This document shows, in pieces, positions 18,443-47,845 of a stretch of DNA of 64,000 nt; the stretch's first letter is position 1; each line of letters begins with the position of its first letter. The translations under genes and the position numbers were made by a program. Below the pieces are notes generated by a model. That model saw nothing but the letters and a program-made list of their open reading frames with translations, was not told the DNA's origin and made no database searches. Source of the DNA: Deroplatys truncata. Its lineage: Eukaryota > Arthropoda > Insecta > Mantodea > Mantidae. The stretch lies in contig CM060990.1 in assembly GCA_030765065.1 (NCBI GenBank), positions 457,706,321-457,770,320 on the forward strand, written 5' to 3'.

Positions 18443-19833
18443 CTGTGAACAGCATAACTCAAAACCTAAAAGTCAGGTAAATACCAAACTTGGTATTCAA
18501 GTGCAGTATCTTCCAAAGATGCGACATGAAGATTTTCAAGAAAATCCCCCACTCTAACTACCCTTTACGTGGAACACTTTTCAACTTTTTATTTTCTAAA
18601 AAATGGCTTGTTACCGCAATTATGGACGGGAAAACATAACTAATTAAATAAAGAAATAATAAAAATAATTGTAATAAGTAATTTCCATATATTAAATCAA
18701 TATATAATGTAACAAGCTTGGGTTAAAATATTTTGACCGGAAAAATAAGGTAATTAAGTCAGATTAGCCAAAATCATTAACGACAGCTGAAGTAGCGAGC
18801 ACATTAACTTAAGGATTTCTGGGAACGCAGTAAGGTTATAAGTTCAGTACTCTTACACAGCCACGTAGGCCAAAATTCTGAAAAAGAGAAGTGAAAGGTA
18901 TTTCTGAGATTTTAGCCAGGCTCAGTTAGTAACCAAAGTCAGATACGCGCATGAAGAGAGGTGAATATTGGCCCAGGCGTGGAGTAATTTTGGTGGGAAT
19001 AATTCCAATGTAGGCGTGTCTTAAGTAATATAGAGGCGGGCTTCTAAATCACAGAGTCATTCTGTACCGGCACTAGTACATGCATTCGTTCGTGCACACC
19101 TTCGTGCACACAGTTGTGCATACATTGCTCTCTCTCTCTCTCTCTGGTACCGTCACCGCTACAACGGCAGGTTACACTACTAGTTTCTTTTATTGTGGAA
19201 ACAGTTAATTCAAATCGTAACCTTGATACTGCAGAAGTTAGCAGATATAATAATTCAGTTATTAAAATTTCAAGTACTACGATTCATAAATCAGTTTATT
19301 TCTTCATTTCAAACGATCGGCATCTCACTTCAAGAACTCAAATACTAGTTCACAATAAATTTCTCAGTTAATTAAACTAATGTCCTTCATAATACATCCA
19401 TACATACCCTGAGGGAAAATACTCATAGCTCAACCATTGGAGCAGTCTGCAGCAGAATCAGCAGCAGATATGGGAGACAACGAGGAAAGGTGTCAATCAC
19501 ATTCCTGCTTCAAATTGTCGCACCATCATGGTGGTATCTTGACTCTGCTTCAGGGTCTAACGATTTTGATAATAATACCATATATTAATGATATTTACAT
19601 AACAAAAGAAATGTATATCTCGAGTTTTCTGGGAATAGCCTGTGGAGTTCTCTTCATTCGGAAGGAATTTTGTGCAATCTTGTATAACTCGTAAGCCTTC
19701 ACAAATGTAAACGTACCCCCCCCAAAAAAAAAACTACATCTCTTTAAAACACACAGCTTATTTCAAACAACTTTTTATGTGGCACAAGCCTCTTCTGAGA
19801 TATCGGTTATTAATAGTTTTAATTGCTCGTCAC

Positions 19834-21183
19834 AGCTCCGAGATGGCGAAGAAGAAGCAGCAACGTAGAGTCGCCGAACCTGCTAAGGCAGGCATCCGCC
19901 GAGGAGAAACCGTTGCAGCCGCCGAAGCCCGGGGCAACTTACGCCTCGACCGCCGCTTCGCCGCGACTGCCTCCGCATTCGCCGCCACCTACACCGGCAT
20001 CCTCGACGCCGATCCTGGGAGCTTTCCAACATGCGTAGATCCAGCCTGTACTTTATGGGAGGTACACCGCTGTCATCCGAGGGGTCCCGAGGGACCTGCC
20101 AGTCAGGTTCCTCATCAGCGGAGCTCACCAGCAGTGGCTTTCAGCCTTGAAGGCCACTCGGATCTTCAGAGCCCAGGGACCCACGTCACTCGTCAGGATC
20201 GAGTTCGTAGACCCTGGAGACTACGAAGCGGCCTTGAGGGCGGGCCTGCCCTTGTTAGGGCGGAGCTTACGCATCGAGGCCAGCCGAGTAGTACGCCAGG
20301 TTCCCTGCACGCGCTGCTGTGCCTACGGGTACGAGGAGACCACCTGCACAACCAAGGCGCCACTACTGTGGTTCCGCCTGCGCAACAGCATCGTGTAAGC
20401 AGCACGACTTAGGCCGCCGCCGCTACTGTACAACCTGTGGAGGGTCGACGCACTACACCGGCCAAACACACTGCCCTCTGCATTCTCGCAGGAAGACACC
20501 GCTGAAGCCAGTAACACCAACACCGCAGCCAGCGACAGCTCCACAGCCGCCGACACCAGCACCATCACCAGCATCGATCATCGCAGTCACCGAGGAAATC
20601 CAGGGCCTACGCGACGCCGTTCAGGATCATCACGCGGAGTTCCTGAACATGTCGGCGAAGCTGACACGTCTGCTGCTCAACAGATTCCCTTGGCTGGGCA
20701 GTTAGACACAACAACCAGACTCAACGCCATGGACGAAACCATCCGGAACTCGGCTCTAGGTCTCAGACTGAAGAGAGACCCGGAGAAAGTCGCACGCTTC
20801 TTGCAGCAATGCAAGGAGTTTAACCGGCAACAGCAGTAGTATCACCAGCATCCACAATCCTAACTTCCATCTCCTTTGAAATCCTCGCTACTCCCATTAG
20901 TGTCGCAGTCACGTTTCATGGCTGCACCCTAATTACTACCTTCACCCGCTTCCGCCCATAGGGCGGCAGCCAACAGCTCTCAGTTACTAACGCGGTTGCT
21001 ATGTGGGACCGCACAAACATCACGTCCTATTCCACTTTTCCTTCTACCATCTTTTTCCTTCCGGTGGAGGAGTTTTTAGTGGGTATGCCGACGCTCGGCG
21101 AGTCCCACACTCTCAGTCCCGACTCGCATCGGGGCTGGGGTTAGTGACTAAATCATTTTCTCCTCCAACCCCCCCCCAAAAGA
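19834..21183 (+). mobile_element. RT-less (gag-only) non-LTR retrotransposon, copy 1
   Basis: This GC-rich insertion sits in an R1 repeat and is flanked by an imperfect 13 bp target duplication, AATTGCTCGTCAC (19821-19833) and AATTGCTTATTAC (21184-21196). It consists of a short 5' leader, an ORF1/gag-like region and a 3' UTR ending in a C-run plus AAAAG. No reverse transcriptase or endonuclease sequence lies between ORF1 and the 3' UTR. A second copy at 46998-47845 has the same 3' UTR joined to an ORF1-like coiled-coil region, so the lack of RT appears to be a family trait. Confidence 0.82.
19843..20839 (+). pseudogene. LINE ORF1 (gag-like) with zinc knuckles (frameshifted)
   Basis: Translation from ATG 19843 starts MAKKKQQRRV and is Ala/Pro/Arg-rich. 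A second frame gives an RRM-like stretch (YTAVIRGVPRDLPVRFL, then LVRIEFVDPGDYEAALRAGL) and a first knuckle CTRCCAYGYEETTC. A third frame (from about 20345) adds CGSACATASCKQH and CTTCGGSTHYTGQTHC, a Pro/Thr linker, and a helical region. The C-terminus reads LKRDPEKVARFLQQCKEF and stops at 20837-20839. The order RRM, cysteine knuckles, linker and helix is the plan of insect LINE gag proteins, which bind the element's RNA. At least two frameshifts separate the parts. The exact clade (I, R1 or Jockey-like) cannot be fixed without an RT domain. Confidence 0.75.
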
Positions 21184-21480
21184 AATTGCTTATTACTTGG
21201 TCACTCTTTTAAAAACCTGTCGATATTCAGATGTTTCCCGCGATTGCATGGAAACAGTATGGAATTTTAAGGACAGCGTATAGCGCCTAGCTCTTAAACA
21301 TTTGACTGTCGCTGTTCCCTTTGTTTCTATAACGAAATGTATAATGTAGCTATTTCTTGAAAGGTTTATTTGGATTAATATGACATAGAAAAATTAACTT
21401 TAGTAAGGGTAGCTTGTATACCTACCAATAAACGATATAGATTAGAGAAAGTCATGTGATGTATCATGTCAGATTTTTCT

Positions 21481-30587: not shown

Positions 30588-31637
30588 TTATTTCTCTACA
30601 TAGTCTCCTTTCAGCTGGATACACTTTTCCTAGCCATGTTCAATAGCTTCGATACGCTGTTTATTGTAAGAACCGTCGAGTTCTGCAAAATAGCCATCAA
30701 CTGCAAACTCCACCTCTTCGTTGTTAGCAAATTATTTATCACCAAGTCATTTCTTCAACTTTAGAAACAGATAATAATCAGAGGGGGCTAAGTCTGGTGA
30801 ATATGGTGCATAAGGAAGCAATTTGAACTTTAACTCGTTGATTTTGGCCATGGCGATAATGGATGTGTGAACTGGTGCATTGTCTTGATGAAACAGAACT
30901 CACTTTTTCGTTAAATGCGGCCGTTTTTGCTTGATTTCATCATTCAAACGCTGCAATAAGTTTGCATAATACTCGCCATTGATTGCTTTTCCTTGTTGAA
31001 GATAATCAATGAAAATTATCCCACGCACATCCCAAATACCTGACACCATGACCTTGCCTGTATATGGAACTGTCTTCGCCTTCTTTGGAGCCGATTCTTC
31101 CCTTTCAATCCATTGCTTTGACTGTTCCTTCGTCTCAGGTGTGAAGTGATGGATCCATGTTTCATCCATGGTTATGAATCGACGCAAAAACTCGGCTTTA
31201 TTGCAGTGAAACATCGCCAAACACTCGACTGAAACTGCCTCACGACGCTGCTTTTGTTCCATTGTGAGTAAATGCGGCACCCATCTTGCGGACAGCTATC
31301 TCATGTCTAAATTTGCAGTTAGTATGCGATGTACAGCACTTTTTGAAATGCCTACGATGTCTGTTAGCTCGCGCACCTTCAGTCGAAGGTCATCTAATAC
31401 CATTTTGTGGATTTTCTTCACAATTTCTGGTGTGGTCACCTCATTTGGTCGACCACTGCAATGTTCGTCTTGGCAGCTCGTACGGCCTCGCTTAAACTCT
31501 GCAACCCTACATTTTACTGTTGTAAACGAAGGAGCAGACTCCCCCAGAGTGTAATCTAGTTCAGCTTTAATATTAGTTGGACTAAGACCTTTCAAATGAA
31601 AGTATTCTATCAGATAACGACGACTAGTTTTATCCAT
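30588..31637 (-). pseudogene. Mariner transposase, full length, in one frame but with stops
   Basis: Starting at MDKTSRRYLIEYF (ATG at 31637), the frame stays continuous for 349 codons to a TAA at 30588, the size of Mos1-type transposases. The helix-turn-helix region includes FTTVKCRVAEFKRGRTSCQD and SGRPNEVTTPE. The catalytic residues are D in TMDETWIHHFTPETK, D in LFHQDNAPVHTS and D in YSPDLAPSDYYLF. There are 34 residues between the last two, the D34D signature. The stretch ends KGDYVEK. I count five in-frame stops (after LDMR, LTKK, KLKK, LGDK and IEHG) and no frameshift, so the copy decayed mainly by substitution. The earlier ATG at 31709 is less likely because it precedes the conserved start. 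Confidence 0.93.
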
Positions 31638-31775
31638 GTTTACAATTTCGCTGAGAGAGTTCACTATTAACTGATGCCAAACAATTACTAAACAACGTAG
31701 CATCGTCAAACTTCAAACTTAAGCTTTATAAGGGTGGTACTTTCTACCATAGTCATTTTTTTGAAACAACAACCG

Positions 31776-37741: not shown

Positions 37742-40500
37742 ATGCCTATCAACTGTTCAGTACCAGGTTGCAGATCGAATTATGAGCCTCCGTATGTAAC
37801 CTGCTTTAGGTTTCCCAGAGATGAGGAACGATGGAAATTGTGGCTAAGCAGAATATGCAGGCAGAATTTTCAGTTCACTGAAAATGCTAGAGTCTGCATT
37901 GGACACTTTCCAGAAGAAATGGTTATTCAGGAGGATAAATGGTAGAATAAAGATGGACGAGTGCATTTCATTCCACGTGTTAATACTTGCCTTGGTGATG
38001 ATGCTTTTCCTACAGTTGTTAATGAAGGCACACACCACTTAAGCTTTTCACTTCCAAAGAAAAGAAGAACAAGAGAGGAAAGGGAAGGTGAAGCACTTCA
38101 CACAACCCTGGTTCAAAGTTTAGCTTCATATGATAAAAAATTGGAAAATAATAGGTTACTCACTTTTGAAGATGTAACCGTTTATAAAACAAAAATGTGT
38201 GAACAAGAGAAAAGATTCTGCACTTTCAATCACTGCTAGTGCTATTACAGTGCCAAAAATAAAATACAGCATTAGTGCCTTATATTGTTAGTAGTTTTGT
38301 GGTTTCTAATGATAAGTGCTTTAAAGTGTGTACAGACAAAGAATTTAACCCTGATGAACACGAATCTCGAATTTGGTGTTATCTTGGAGAAATCTCAGGT
38401 GGATGCATTATTTAAGTTCTGTAGTGTGCCTGTGTCAAACTTTAAAGAAAATAAACTTGCTGCAGCAGTGAAATTGTTAAAATAACACGAGGTGCTAGAT
38501 GCTGGTAAAAAGTGAGGTTAAGTGTACTTACAAAGCAGATAGAATTATTCTCCTTTAAGAAGGAAAGGTACAGATTTTCATCAGATCTTCTTAGGTTGGC
38601 TCTGAGAATGTTCCTGATATCTCCTGCATGTTACAGAACTATACGTCAGTCACAGGTACTAACTCTTCTACATCCAAGTAACTTAAGAAAACTGGCTGCC
38701 AGTCTAAATGTAAGTGACAGCAATTTTAATATTAGCAATTCCTACATTGTTGGTCGCATTTGTTCCTTGAAACCTGAGGAAAGATTTGTTAATATTTTGA
38801 TGGATGAAGTTTATATTTCACCAGAGTTAACTTTTAAAGGTGGTGAATTGGTAGGAACTAGTGCAACAAATACACATGAGCTTGCTAAAACAGCTCAATT
38901 GTTTTCAGTAAATGCTGCATTTCTTAATTATTCAAATGTCATTGCCATTTTTCCAGTCAGTAGAAATTCTGGGGAGTTTTTACATGCTACTGTGAGTAAC
39001 ATTTACGGCGAACTTGGCAAACTTGATGTAAAAGTAATCAGCCTCATAGCTGATAATAATCAGATCAACAAATCTTTGTTTCACAAATTCACACCACATC
39101 CATTTGGTCATTATTCAGTAGTAAATCCCTTTAGCCAATCACAGCCTCTGTTTTTGCTCTATGATATCGTGCATAATTTCAAAAATATAAGGAATATTTG
39201 GATAAACCAGAAAGATCTTATGAATAATTTTCCTGATTTTGAAAATCCAGATATAATTAAGAGTGTTAATTCTGGTCACCTCAGATCACTTTATTACAAA
39301 GAAAAGAATGAATTGCTGAAATTTAGTTATAAGTTAAATGCAAAAGCTGTCTATTCATCAAATATTGAAAGATAAAAATGAGTCTTGTGGGTAAAATTTT
39401 CAATTATGAAAATATTAATGCCCTCTTAGAATGCAATGATGGTTATGGAGAAACAGGAGATTTTTTAAATATTATCATAAAATGGTGGAATATTGTAAAT
39501 GTTAAGTTTCTATACAAGGATGTAAGGTATAAAAATGCTGATTACAAAGCAGTCTTTGGCATCGAGCAAAAAGAGTTAATTTTCCTGAATAAATTTTCAG
39601 CATGGTTGTGCAATTGAGAACATCTCTCTAGGGGAAGTGTATACCAAGGGCTGTCTAGGCTCACATTTGATGCAATAATGCAGACATGGTCAGACCTTTA
39701 TGGTTTAGCAAATCATGCTCTAACGGAATTAAAAGTAAACCATGTTCTGTTTGGCATGTTTCAAACAGATCCTCTTTAAGAGCGATTCAAGTCTTTACCG
39801 TTAATTGTCTGGCAGTAATTATTTTATCTCTCTCCAATAGCTATATGAGAGTGAGAAAAAGATCGGAATTAAAAATATGCTTTAATTTTCTTTAAAAAAT
39901 GGTAACATTTCAGTAAGAAGCTTAAAATTGTGGGCGCAGAACCTGAAAACAAAAATGTTTCATCACTGCTGCCTTATTGTGGCATAGAAATTGAAATTGC
40001 AAAACCAATGGATAATGATGTTATCTACATTGCAGGTTATGCTGCTTTCAAGGTAGCAAATGGTATAATATGTCCCAAATACATTGAGTTATTGATTTTA
40101 AATGACACTTTAGAGTATGAATTTGAAGGTGCAGCAAGGCTGATTGGTTCGTTAAGTAGAGGTTCTCTAAAGAAACCCACAATATATTGCGTAAAAGTAA
40201 TGTGGTTGTGTATCCAACTATTTCAAGGCTTAGTCAAAGAGTGTTACGATGATTTTATTGAAAAGCAGTAATCATCTTGCCTTGTTGTAGAATTTGCGCA
40301 GTCCCTATATAGTAAACATTATGGATGAAACCAGAGAAACGATCATCAGTCAATGCAACCATAAATTTGAAGACTATTTTCATGATGTATGCTCAATTAT
40401 TTGCAAAATTATTCTAAATAATTACTCCAAAATGGTAACTGAGGATAAGAAACAAAAGTCTTGTAATAAAAGAAGAATAAAGAAACTCACTAATAAGTGA
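37742..40500 (+). pseudogene. P-superfamily (THAP9-like) transposase, copy P1 (broken)
   Basis: Residues 1-60 form a THAP zinc finger: C5 and C10 (MPINCSVPGC), FRFP with W34, C52-x2-H55 (VCIGHF), and after a TAG at 37943-37945 the DDAFPTV box. A Lys/Arg-rich linker follows. The catalytic part is largely intact in one 287-codon frame (38512-39375). It has LLHPSNLRKL, the first acidic block VNILMDEVYISPELTFKGGE, ISLIADNNQINKSLF, and the insertion-domain segment LLYDIVHNFKNIRNIW. The C-terminal half is in several frames: FLNIIIKWWNI, DPLESDSSLYRQLSG, IAGYAAF and LSRGSLKKPT. At least three frameshifts and several stops separate the parts. P-type transposases bind DNA through THAP and use GTP as cofactor. 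I could not locate the terminal inverted repeats. Confidence 0.82.
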
Positions 40501-41629: not shown

Positions 41630-42413
41630 ATGTGGAATTCGCTGCCCACCGCCTTCGACTGCCGCCATATTGAAAGCAGTGATCAGGCCTGTAGTGTAGT
41701 GCCCTGTGATTTCCCCGCATACACAGGTGCAAAAGAAATTGCCGCATCATTGCTGTTCAAAGGAGCACTGCAGGTACAAAGTGAAAGGTCACTGAGTAGT
41801 GCTGCTGTTTGAAGGTGTTTAGATGGTAGTTTCGTACTGATAAGCGCCGCGTGGTCGTCTGCATGCAGTTCAAACCAGGTTATTCAGACCATGCCTGACT
41901 GCTATTCTCTTTCAGCCTCGGCAAATCCCTGCTGCTTAGGGGAAACAGCGTTTGGCTGATATTTCTCATTCTTTCCACAGCGCGCTACGGTCCGTCCTAA
42001 CAGAACGTCTTACTGAGGCATCCCGTAGCCCGCAGTGGAACAAATCAGCTATGGTCACGTCTTGTATACTCGTGGTGAGCTTTGTTAATCGTGAGAAACA
42101 AGTGGAATACATTATGTAATTTCAGGGTGAAATAAGTGTTAATTCGAAACATACGTAAACTACATTCTGTATTTGTATATTGCGTGGGGAGATCTATTGA
42201 AGCATTTAAAGGCAAGTATCATACCTTGTTGTATTATACCGCTAATTGACACCATGAGCATTGCTGTTTTAATGAACATAGTTCAGTATGAGTTGGTAGG
42301 ATCAATTTGATGTGCGATAGATCAGGCTCATTATAAAATGAATAATATAAACTTTCGCATTAAGATATAGCAGATTTCAAGCGAGAGAGTTACACGTTTC
42401 CTTTACATTTCAG
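41630..42413 (+). promoter_or_regulatory. Probable promoter region, noncoding exon and first intron of P2
   Basis: A GC-richer block ends with a donor site CTCGTGGTGAGC (GT at 42075). The intron would run to the acceptor CTTTACATTTCAG ending at 42413, directly before the THAP ATG at 42414. The exon assignment rests only on splice-site appearance and the parallel with P1. Confidence 0.4.
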
Positions 42414-44000
42414 ATGCCCTATTGTGTTCTATTTTGCAAAATCACGAGGGGCAAAGCTAAAGGAATAAGGTACCATGAATTCCTTCTTGATAGTGAATTG
42501 AGGAAGGAATGGCTACGTGTGATTTCACGTCAGGATTTTGTTCCAAACATAAATTCAAACACTTCTATCGTGTGCAGTGAACACTTTAAAGACGATGACA
42601 ATAGATCTGGATTAAAATACAGAATTTTGAAACCAGGCAGTGTACCCAGCATGTTTCCAATTTATCCAGTACATAAAGTACCGGTAGTAAACTCCCGGCG
42701 CCAAATATTCAGGTCGGAGCCAACAATAACTCAGGTTATGAAGTGTAAGCAAAGCAATTCTCCAAATGAACTCAGAGATGAGGTGTTTAACGTTAATAAT
42801 ATTGCTACTTCTGAGTCAATTGAGGTGCAAACTGATAATGATTTGGTAGCTAAACTAAAGCATATGCAAATGGAAGTTAGGCCTCAAAAGACCAAAATAT
42901 GGTGACTCAAAGCAAAATTGCGTGTAATTCAGCAGAAGGTCGACAGTTCATCTAGTGCACTTAATTTATTTAAAACAGTAAACATCATTGTAGTTTGCAG
43001 GAGATTCTCTCGCATGAAAATACTGAAAAATATGATTTTCTGCTACAACAAATTTTGAATTTTAATTAAAAGGCACGCAGATGGAATGAAAAAACGATGA
43101 GAAAATACATTATTTGGCAGCACTGTTCACCCGAGGGCTACAGGTATGCTAGGGATTTCATTTTGAAATTACCCTGCGAATGGATATTAAATCGTTTCGT
43201 AGGGATTGTTTGTTCAGAAACAGGTGTCACTACTCCGATAAAATTTCGACTAACAGCAGAAGCTGAGACTATGACGAAAGCGGAGTTCATCTGTAGCTTA
43301 GTTGTAGAGGACATGTCTATAAAACAGCAGATGCAATATGATGTTCTCCTGACACTTTCTTTGGACAGGAGGATGCATCAATTCACGCAAAGAAAATAGC
43401 AGGAAATGAACAGCCACTTGCTACAGACTTCTGTGCTTCATGATTTGCGGAGTATGAACTAAATTCAAACTACCTGCAGCCTATTTCTTCACCGAGCAGT
43501 TAACCGATTCTCAGCTTTTTTTACTAACCAAGCATATAATACATGAAATAGAAAATTGTGGATTTCGTGTCTTGCGACTTGTCTCAATCATAAAACAAAC
43601 GTCTCCATGATGAAGAAATTATCAAACAACAAGTCTGTGCAGACATTCATACCTCACCCATAAGATCCAAACACGCCCTTGTTCCTCGCCTTTGATCAGT
43701 GCCAAATTCTGAAAAACCTGAGAACATTGTTCTTAGAAAGGGTAATGTTTGATGACACCGAAAAATAACAGGGAACTATGCTGGACACTTGTGCAAACTT
43801 CACGCATCTGAAACTATCAAACTAGTACACTTCCTATCCAGAAAGCATATTCTTCCATCCAACTTCGAAAAGATGAACATAAAGCGTACCAAAGAGACAT
43901 TTTCACCTGAAGTGACAGGAGCTTTAAAATGGCTTAAAAATAATCCTGCTAGTGGTACTCAGGGATACGACTTCTCTAAGGCCTACCCCACTGTTAAATA

Positions 44001-46530: not shown

Positions 46531-46997
46531 TTTTTTTTTTTACAGAAATAATATTAAGAAATGATGGGTCATTCCTGGTAGAACGTGGGCCTAAGAGGTC
46601 CTTACATCACTTCTTCCACCAAAGGCGGGCATGTTTTTGCGCATGCTTATTGTGAATAATGCACAAACAGAAGATCATTTAATTCTAACGCACCTTTAAG
46701 GGTACATAAATATAATAAAAATAAAATTTTGTTTAATCTTGTTAAGTTTGGTGGCATATAGTTTTACTGCTTGTAGATTAACTGTCATGGAACTAACTGA
46801 CTTAATAAGTGTGCTCAGGTTTGTGTCAAGCGGCAATCTTGAATTCTTGTTAATGAACAAGTTGCTTATGAAATATCCGATAACACCCTCCCATACACAC
46901 ACAGGTACTCTTACATTCAAACACTAGACTCGGCATACCGTGAAATGTTTTCGTTTAAAGATAACTTTTTGGAGCCTAGCCTGGAATTTTGTTTTCG

Positions 46998-47845
46998 AGT
47001 GGAGGAGAAAATGATTTAGTAACTACACCAGCCCCGATGGGAGTCGGGATCTAGAGTGTGGGACTCACCAATAGTCTGCATACCCACTAAAAACTCCTCC
47101 ACCAGAAGGAAAATGGAAGAAGGAAAAAGAGGAATACAGGAGTGATAATGCGGCTGTAAAGCTGTTGCACAAGCGTAGTCAAGGTAGGGATATATTGGCC
47201 GGCCACGAGTTCATAAGCCAGGTGAAATAAGGTGCCAGGACTCAAGCATGACCGAGGCCCTACTTGCGCCCTTGGGATTTAGGGTGAGACGGTATAGGAA
47301 GTGTTGTGTGGTTGGATGCTAAGATTGAGGTGTGGTTATCTGTGCTTCCAACGTCCTTCGATGGTGAGCAGTCGGAGCTTCCTGTGTGGGCCCCCATAGG
47401 GGCTCGTCGTGGTTTTCTGGAAGTATGTTGGACAGAACGTCATCCAACGTTGTCTGGAGGGCTGCTATCTCCTCCCTGATGAGCCTTCTGACGTTCAAGT
47501 AATGCTCGTGGAAGTAGGTTGGTAGTGTTAGCGCATCAGGAAGTTTTGGTATTAACTTTGCAGCGAAGAGTATGTTTTCGTGGTCCTCTTGAAGTTCGAT
47601 CAATACCTCCTCCACGATGGCCAGTTTAGTGGTGATGTTCAGTAGCTCCGACTGCATATCCTCCAGCTTCTGCAGGATTTCAGGCGAAGGTTCCGTTGTG
47701 ATATTGCTGCTTGCGACTGTTTCAGGCGTGTCTTCTACTCTAGGAGGCCCGTTCTGCTCGACGCGGTCATGCGGAATCAAACCCGGAACACCTTATATAG
47801 CAAGAGTTTCTCTACCGAATGAGACCAGTAACAGCAGTTAAAGTA
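46998..47845 (-). mobile_element. RT-less (gag-only) non-LTR retrotransposon, copy 2
   Basis: On the minus strand the 3' UTR (about 47140-46998) matches copy 1 block by block: GGTGGAGGAGTTTTTAGTGG, GAGTCCCACACTCT, ATCGGGGCTGG and CTAAATCATTTTCTCCTCC. Upstream is a frame of 153 codons. Possible target duplication: ATTTTGTTTTCGAG (about 46987-47000) and ATTAGTTTTCAAG (about 47846-47858), imperfect. Compared with copy 1 it is truncated at the 5' side. Confidence 0.72.
47319..47780 (-). CDS. ORF1-like C-terminal region of gag-only LINE, copy 2
   Basis: This 153-codon open frame starts MIPHDRVEQNGPPRVEDTPE. It then has a long predicted coiled coil (ILQKLEDMQSELLNITTKLA, VLIELQEDHENILFAAKLI, RRLIREEIAALQTTLDDVLS) and a polar tail. 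Copy 1 has the same order of Pro/Thr linker and helical region in front of the same 3' UTR. No zinc knuckle or RRM lies in this truncated copy, and no RT follows. That the frame is still open suggests moderate age or chance survival. It would be an oligomerisation segment of a gag-like protein; direct sequence similarity to copy 1 is weak. Confidence 0.5.
   Translation of the reverse strand: MIPHDRVEQNGPPRVEDTPETVASSNITTEPSPEILQKLEDMQSELLNITTKLAIVEEVLIELQEDHENILFAAKLIPKLPDALTLPTYFHEHYLNVRRLIREEIAALQTTLDDVLSNILPENHDEPLWGPTQEAPTAHHRRTLEAQITTPQS

Follow-up and report, generated by a model that had tools for sequence, protein, structure and literature searches.

HeT-A of Drosophila is described as an element with one ORF1 and no reverse transcriptase (RT), which retrotransposes by the machinery of another element at chromosome ends (PMC4700185). 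HAL1 (half-L1) of mammals, a non-autonomous derivative of a LINE, is presented as coding for ORF1p alone and as having arisen on several occasions (PMC5753468). In Lepidoptera, the SIDE Persaeus is non-autonomous and has its 3' end in common with an autonomous LINE, its partner Zenon; its length is given as 271-317 bp in three species, and the words ORF1 and ORF2 are absent from the main text of the paper (PMC6740152).

We analysed a stretch of 64,000 nucleotides from the mantis Deroplatys truncata (assembly GCA_030765065.1, contig CM060990.1, positions 457,706,321 to 457,770,320), referred to below as the window. It contains two element copies which, judging from sequence comparisons, are probably fossils of two sibling non-autonomous LINE families, A and B, each coding for a single gag-like ORF1 and served in trans by the RT of helper Jockey-type LINEs through a shared 3' tail. 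Like HeT-A, both families have one ORF1 and no RT, and some of their copies stand head to tail. HeT-A is described at chromosome ends, whereas copies of A and B are dispersed at internal positions of many contigs (for example, at 457.7 of the 707 Mb of contig C16) and do not display insertion at ends. Like HAL1, they are ORF1-only non-autonomous LINEs. However, HAL1 derives from L1, whose ORF1 is arranged as coiled coil, RRM and CTD, whereas the gag of A and B has a predicted RRM followed by knuckles, the order given for type I ORF1s (PMC4120745). No L1-type ORF1 or descent from L1 is apparent in A and B, the gag is not convincingly similar to the ORF1 of LINEs with the shared tail, and a tail-sharing LINE has a PRE_C2HC ORF1. 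A and B also resemble Persaeus in sharing a 3' end with an RT-bearing LINE, but they code for a selected protein. An earlier note on this DNA had likened the plan to HAL1 and HeT-A, and the ORF1-only, RT-less organization supports the comparison; the two families would work like these elements and are members of neither, being dispersed, divided into several families, and equipped with a type I-like gag that is unlike that of their probable helpers.

Families A and B in the window and across the genome

Copy 1 is a decayed member of family A of near full length, occupying positions 19828-21183 of the forward strand according to genome matches and self-comparison of the window. It consists of a 15-nt leader, a single gag-like ORF and a 3' UTR, and has no RT. 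The leader (19828-19842, ending in CACAGCTCCGAG), recognized by the start shared among copies and by 25-mer counts, directly precedes the gag ATG at 19843. The ORF1 (19843-20839) is broken into pieces by two or more frameshifts and an in-frame stop (20036-20038), and was delimited with the aid of an open relative, L009, whose entire frame encodes 367 amino acids. Within it lie, with approximate limits, the putative RRM segment (20060-20300), the cysteine/histidine knuckles read from the sequence and split by a frameshift (20305-20480), and the C-terminal coiled coil region, which also contains a frameshift (20575-20839). The 3' UTR ends C/A-rich and includes a structured tail with a closing stem and inner hairpins, placed at 21062-21173 by folding and a covariance model. 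The copy is flanked by a target-site duplication (AATTGCT at 19821-19827 and 21184-21190), which at 7 nt is weak evidence taken alone. The plan first read from this copy (target duplication, RRM-like segment, cysteine knuckles, helical C-terminus and 3' UTR without RT) is confirmed in the sequence, the RRM being supported by the model of L009.

Copy 2 belongs to family B and lies on the reverse strand at 46996-47772, as delimited by genome matches. It is truncated at the 5' end inside gag, since most relatives match it only from query position 87-91 (window position ~47772) on; in other B copies another ~750 nt lead up to a 5' end that they share (ACTTCGCCTCGAGCC..CACC-ATGGC). The copy had been given the limits 46998-47845, and its shared tail stands, but the homology to its family stops at ~47772 and not at 47845. 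The open helical region described as gag-like upstream of the tail proves to be the C-terminus of family B gag: an open frame at 47319-47792 (reverse strand) contains its coiled coil part, as established from the ORF and family comparison. The tail of copy 2 occupies 46994-47104 on the same strand (covariance model, E 3.4e-26) and matches that of copy 1 over 141 columns at 87% identity (E 6e-41 to 9e-43). A shared 3' UTR had been placed at about 21060-21170; it is real, but the shared stretch measures ~140 nt, of which ~21064-21170 forms the folded core.

These last ~140 nt are all that the two copies have in common at the DNA level. The gag proteins of A (L009) and B (L059, with 392 codons open from stop to stop) are 42% identical over 253 amino acids (E 4e-57). 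The notion that both copies belong to one family is therefore rejected. A third gag of this kind, family E, was found in L068:783-1376 (reverse strand), with 33% identity to A gag over 223 amino acids (E 6e-20); this gag stands upstream of a diverged tail in L058 (tail E 1.2e-5).

The window's own assembly (4.29 Gb, 818 contigs) was searched with both copies. For copy 1, the best 40 of 4885 first-look candidates were scored and 56 matches listed; 21 of the 56, the window copy included, span the query from position 1-3 to at least 1326 in one alignment, at 74-100% identity. Family A is about 1.3-1.4 kb long. Its full-length copies have nearly the same start, CACACTCAGCTCCGAG-ATG, and in most of them the 3' end is CTCCTCCACTCG or a near match to it, followed by a short A run. 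A 25-mer from the 5' end of A occurs 222 times in the genome (reversed control 0), and a 21-mer from the tail 3032 times (control 0), the latter motif not being specific to A. For copy 2, the best 40 of 3935 candidates were scored; family B is about 1.4-1.55 kb long.

We fetched 60 gag loci, the best 30 matches per family among the 40 candidates scored for each, and in addition L064 and L065 for A. A recognizable 5' end is present in 39 of the 60 copies; all 14 of the B copies among these measure 1.39-1.55 kb, and 24 of the 25 A copies 1.29-1.43 kb, the remaining one containing an insertion. Flank repeats of at least 8 nt accompany 19 of the 39; among mismatched pairs of flanks the share is 8.6%. 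The lists of 5'-end and tail motifs are both complete for the first 185 Mb of contig C1. Of the eight A 5' ends there, five are followed on their own strand by the exact tail motif at a distance of 1.30-1.37 kb, and three have none within 8 kb, one of them with a diverged tail. A and B are multicopy families with defined ends and target-site duplications, as gag-only LINEs would be.

In eight of the 60 gag loci (L006 and L025 of A; L035, L038, L040, L044, L047 and L058 of B), the gag-only copy begins 6-97 nt beyond the tail of a different element in the same orientation, and in L029 two A copies follow each other head to tail. This arrangement suggests that gag-only copies may insert at the A run of older copies, which would produce head-to-tail pairs without any telomere. 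B copies in L035, L036, L038, L040 and L044 adjoin a shared or similar 3'-flank repeat (..CTGAAGATGTCTGCCGTAGTCGCAGACGAAACGTC.. or variants); CTGAAGATGTCTGCCGTAGTCGCAGACGAAACGTC or a variant of it was read in L035, L036, L038 and L040, and L044 has only the first part of the flank in common. We take this repeat to resemble the hammerhead ribozyme of Penelope-like elements; Rfam at the gathering threshold gave no hammerhead ribozyme match to it in L035, L036 and L040. Two A copies (G000:C1:16873215-16874730 and C9:195660367-195661882) match at gag positions 1-827 and then at the 3' UTR from ~1012-1029, with an unmatched stretch of ~340-360 nt, longer than usual, between gag and 3' UTR; the C-terminus of their gag may have been replaced. 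The window also contains mariner-type transposase frames at 30900-31712 on the reverse strand (Transposase_1, 3.3e-23, on 30903-31295) and P-element-like pieces at 38509-39372 and 42351-42902 on the forward strand (TNP-like RNase H domain, 4.1e-8; THAP domain, 2.9e-14).

The gag protein and selection on its frame

The order of gag domains is RRM, knuckles and C-terminal coiled coil. An AlphaFold2 model of L009, computed from a 19-row alignment (A2) of gag pieces from the same genome, displays a beta-alpha-beta-beta-alpha-beta domain at residues 86-159 (block pLDDT 61-89), and its residues 262-313 form a long helix (block pLDDT 83-96 for 261-310); the whole model has a mean pLDDT of 61 and a pTM of 0.31. 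When compared with the PDB by Foldseek, the model returned RRM proteins in all of the first 18 rows (best E 3.7e-3, probability 1.00), with a few other folds among the best 50 rows and none of the 1755 matches reaching E 0.001. The single-sequence model of the window RRM piece is of low confidence (43). The presence of an RRM in A and B gag is supported by the modelled fold. The RRM is followed in L009 by three knuckles read from the sequence (CX2CX4HX4C, CX2CX8C and CX2CX4HX6C); a model-derived RRM directly upstream of a CCHC knuckle is the arrangement of type I ORF1s of the Jockey superfamily. Pfam gave no meaningful family score for gag, and no zf-CCHC match.

Both gag frames are under purifying selection, concentrated in the variants common to several copies, that is, acting before insertion. 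In family A, the pairwise dN/dS of gag is 0.53 (435 pairs, 30 copies), against 0.97 and 1.07 in the +1 and +2 frames and 0.93, 1.18 and 0.59 in the reverse frames, the last value coming from offset 2, the frame in which third positions coincide. Constraint is unequal along the protein: dN/dS is 0.38 in the RRM, 0.41 in the knuckles, 0.49 in the coiled coil and 0.60 in the linker, and the N-terminal 80 residues show none (0.95). Family B gag has a dN/dS of 0.47, against 0.88 and 1.18 in the shifted frames (378 pairs, 30 copies). The ratio of non-synonymous to synonymous variants (N/S), counted without variants present in 2-3 copies, is 2.83 (A) and 3.19 (B) among singletons and falls to 1.10 and 1.13 among variants found in at least four copies (p 1.2e-8 and 1.7e-9). 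The shifted frames display no such drop, with shared-variant ratios of 2.92 and 4.91 against 2.97 and 2.81 in A, and of 3.35 and 4.59 against 2.43 and 2.84 in B. Singleton variants mostly represent later decay. The low ratio of shared variants, seen in the gag frame and not in the shifted ones, indicates that gag was kept while the lineages spread.

The 3' tail and the reverse transcriptases that share it

For the final ~110 nt of copy 1 and L009, folding predicts a stem that is closed by GGUGGAGGAG/CUCCUCC.. and encloses hairpins (z -5.3 and -5.95). The z-scores of other tails are -4.9 for L042, -4.1 for the B-subgroup copy of L047, -2.3 for copy 2, -5.4 and -1.2 for the type C tails of L038 and L035, and -3.9 and -3.3 for the type D tails of L040 and L047. 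L009 differs in its minimum-energy fold from L042 and copy 2, and no closing stem forms in the type D tail of L047. The last hairpin differs in sequence among L009, the B copy of L047, L038, L035 and the type D tail of L047, and folds in each. Across 38 aligned tails (of the 59 loci for which the tail was cut), 90.6% of cells pair, compared with 45-52% when the alignment is slid. Covariation in these 38 rows is weak: two-sided changes occur in eight cells, seven of them in one pair, and shuffles reached eight two-sided cells in 7 of 500 cases and the covariation score in 456 of 500. The tail is likely to be structured, its exact fold being less certain; an RNAalifold consensus, poorer in structure than the single folds, was set aside. 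The covariance model of the tail found 73 matches in the window and the 60 loci, some of which are diverged tails right upstream of B copies. No match to the tail motif was found in viral contigs and prokaryote genomes, and a full-text literature search for three tail strings returned one unrelated paper only. Identification of the elements as a SINE or an Rfam RNA was rejected. Rfam gave no identity, and no small-RNA head at copy 1; where a SINE would have a pol III head and no protein coding, a selected ORF runs from near the 5' end.

Full-length copies carry ORF1 and neither endonuclease (EN) nor RT, as do gag-only LINEs of the HAL1 and HeT-A kind. In none of the 60 gag loci did tblastn with two RT queries detect RT between gag and tail; over these loci, the window and L061-L063, matches were confined to L062, L063, L035 and L034. 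The match in L035 belongs to a neighbouring type C element, and that in L034 (E 3e-11) lies downstream of its B element, not in the place of an ORF2. In the A copies L064 and L065, similarity is lost near gag position 830-880; read for 3 kb, they have no same-strand RT downstream, and L064 has a 34-residue RT-like piece on the opposite strand ~2 kb past gag (E 5e-6), again not in the place of an ORF2. The earlier note had argued that the source was probably already RT-less and proposed collecting further copies; those collected pass directly from gag to the 3' UTR without RT and at near-constant spacing, and this fixed plan in many copies, with no RT in the loci read, supports the argument. 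Among the best 40 scored candidates per search, out of thousands, we found no RT-bearing LINE with an A- or B-type gag.

The proposed search for an autonomous relative with the same 3' UTR was fruitful: RT-bearing LINEs with a homologous tail are present in the same genome. We distinguish types C and D, which we take from sequence motifs to be of the Jockey clade. In L066/L038, EN, RT, a C-terminal part, the 3' UTR and the tail follow in order, with broken frames; L062, a sister of these (89% identical over 1350 nt), has ORF1, EN and half of RT, its RT C-terminus having been removed by an internal deletion. L063 and L067 have the RT C-terminus and 3' UTR in common (79% over 345 nt). RVT_1 was recognized in the RT-bearing LINEs at 6.7e-14 and 2.2e-16, and Exo_endo_phos remained below the cut-off. 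When L063:3700-4960, running from the RT C-terminus through the tail, was used as the query, all 40 scored loci (the best of 1573 candidates, the query itself among them) matched the query over practically its full length: 19 as a single alignment (87-88%, the query at 100%) and 21 as two that abut (87-95%). Upstream of one of these matches, L069 contains ORF1 followed by EN, with an unread gap of 1.1 kb before the match. Tails of one A and one B copy are 81-86% identical to those of type C and 66-70% to those of type D (two copies each), and one type C 3' UTR aligns with B copies for ~310 nt at 66-75%. The 3' end is shared with an RT-bearing LINE, as expected of a gag-only element. The ORF1 of type C contains PRE_C2HC (1.1e-7); comparison of type C and D ORF1 with A and B gag gave no convincing similarity (hhalign probability 1.5%, E 0.034), the D-type ORF1 matching gag B over only 30 residues (E 0.25).

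Origin and mobilization of the ORF1-only families

The best reading of the comparisons is that A and B are dispersed LINEs of the HAL1/HeT-A kind with their own gag and no RT of their own, probably borrowing the enzyme of the tail-sharing LINEs of the same genome. The RNA of an A or B element would be translated into gag, which would bind or package the RNA that encodes it, in cis. The endonuclease/RT of a Jockey-type LINE would then recognize the shared tail at the 3' end of this RNA and copy it into nicked DNA by target-primed reverse transcription. Target duplications in about half of the tested copies fit such insertion by a helper RT at nicked DNA. Gag has stayed under selection although the enzyme must come from elsewhere, so the main beneficiary of a gag is probably the RNA that encodes it.

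Alternatively, A and B might be internal-deletion or splice products, akin to SIDEs or SpIREs, generated repeatedly from RT-bearing masters with the same gag, in which case the selection would have acted in the masters. Derivatives of this type have been described (PMC6740152), and L062 is itself an RT-bearing LINE with an internal deletion. We nevertheless regard this origin as unlikely: the copies follow one plan, the 60 loci have no RT between gag and tail, and the RT-bearing LINEs with the shared tail have a different ORF1. A gag maintained for a role in trans, in aid of the helper LINE or the host, with the elements moving as passive SINE-like RNAs, appears very improbable. The tail alone would link A and B to the helper RT under such a scheme, and HeT-A ORF1p reportedly guides that of TART to chromosome ends (PMC4700185), but within-family selection in transmitted variants is most simply explained by a benefit to the encoding RNA. 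Least credible of all, and close to dismissal even though RT is present in LINEs with a homologous tail, is the chance loss of the RT part from two window copies of ordinary autonomous LINEs, which is opposed by 222 exact A 5' ends and a near-constant gag-to-tail spacing; two internal deletions in ordinary LINEs are rejected on the grounds of one plan in many copies, and a majority of tail copies with RT, accompanied by separate deletions, was not seen among the best 40 candidates per search.

Under the preferred reading, in which the RT-less families are served by helper LINEs, we tentatively suggest, at somewhat less than even odds, that RT was lost once before the split of A, B and E, and that the RT-less gag lineage has since radiated as long-lived LINE satellites, evolving its own gag and relying on Jockey-type LINEs, whose gag is unlike, for nothing but the RT that reads the tail. 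If so, each element would be a chimera of the gag of one LINE and the tail of another. A dispersed ORF1-only LINE family of insects was not found in the titles and abstract openings of open-licence literature, which is no proof of absence from print. Families A and B separate the two LINE proteins in nature, ORF1 being selected without an RT of its own and away from chromosome ends. They make it possible to test what the encoding RNA gains from ORF1p as distinct from the enzyme, and whether the RT is recruited by nothing more than the 3' tail.
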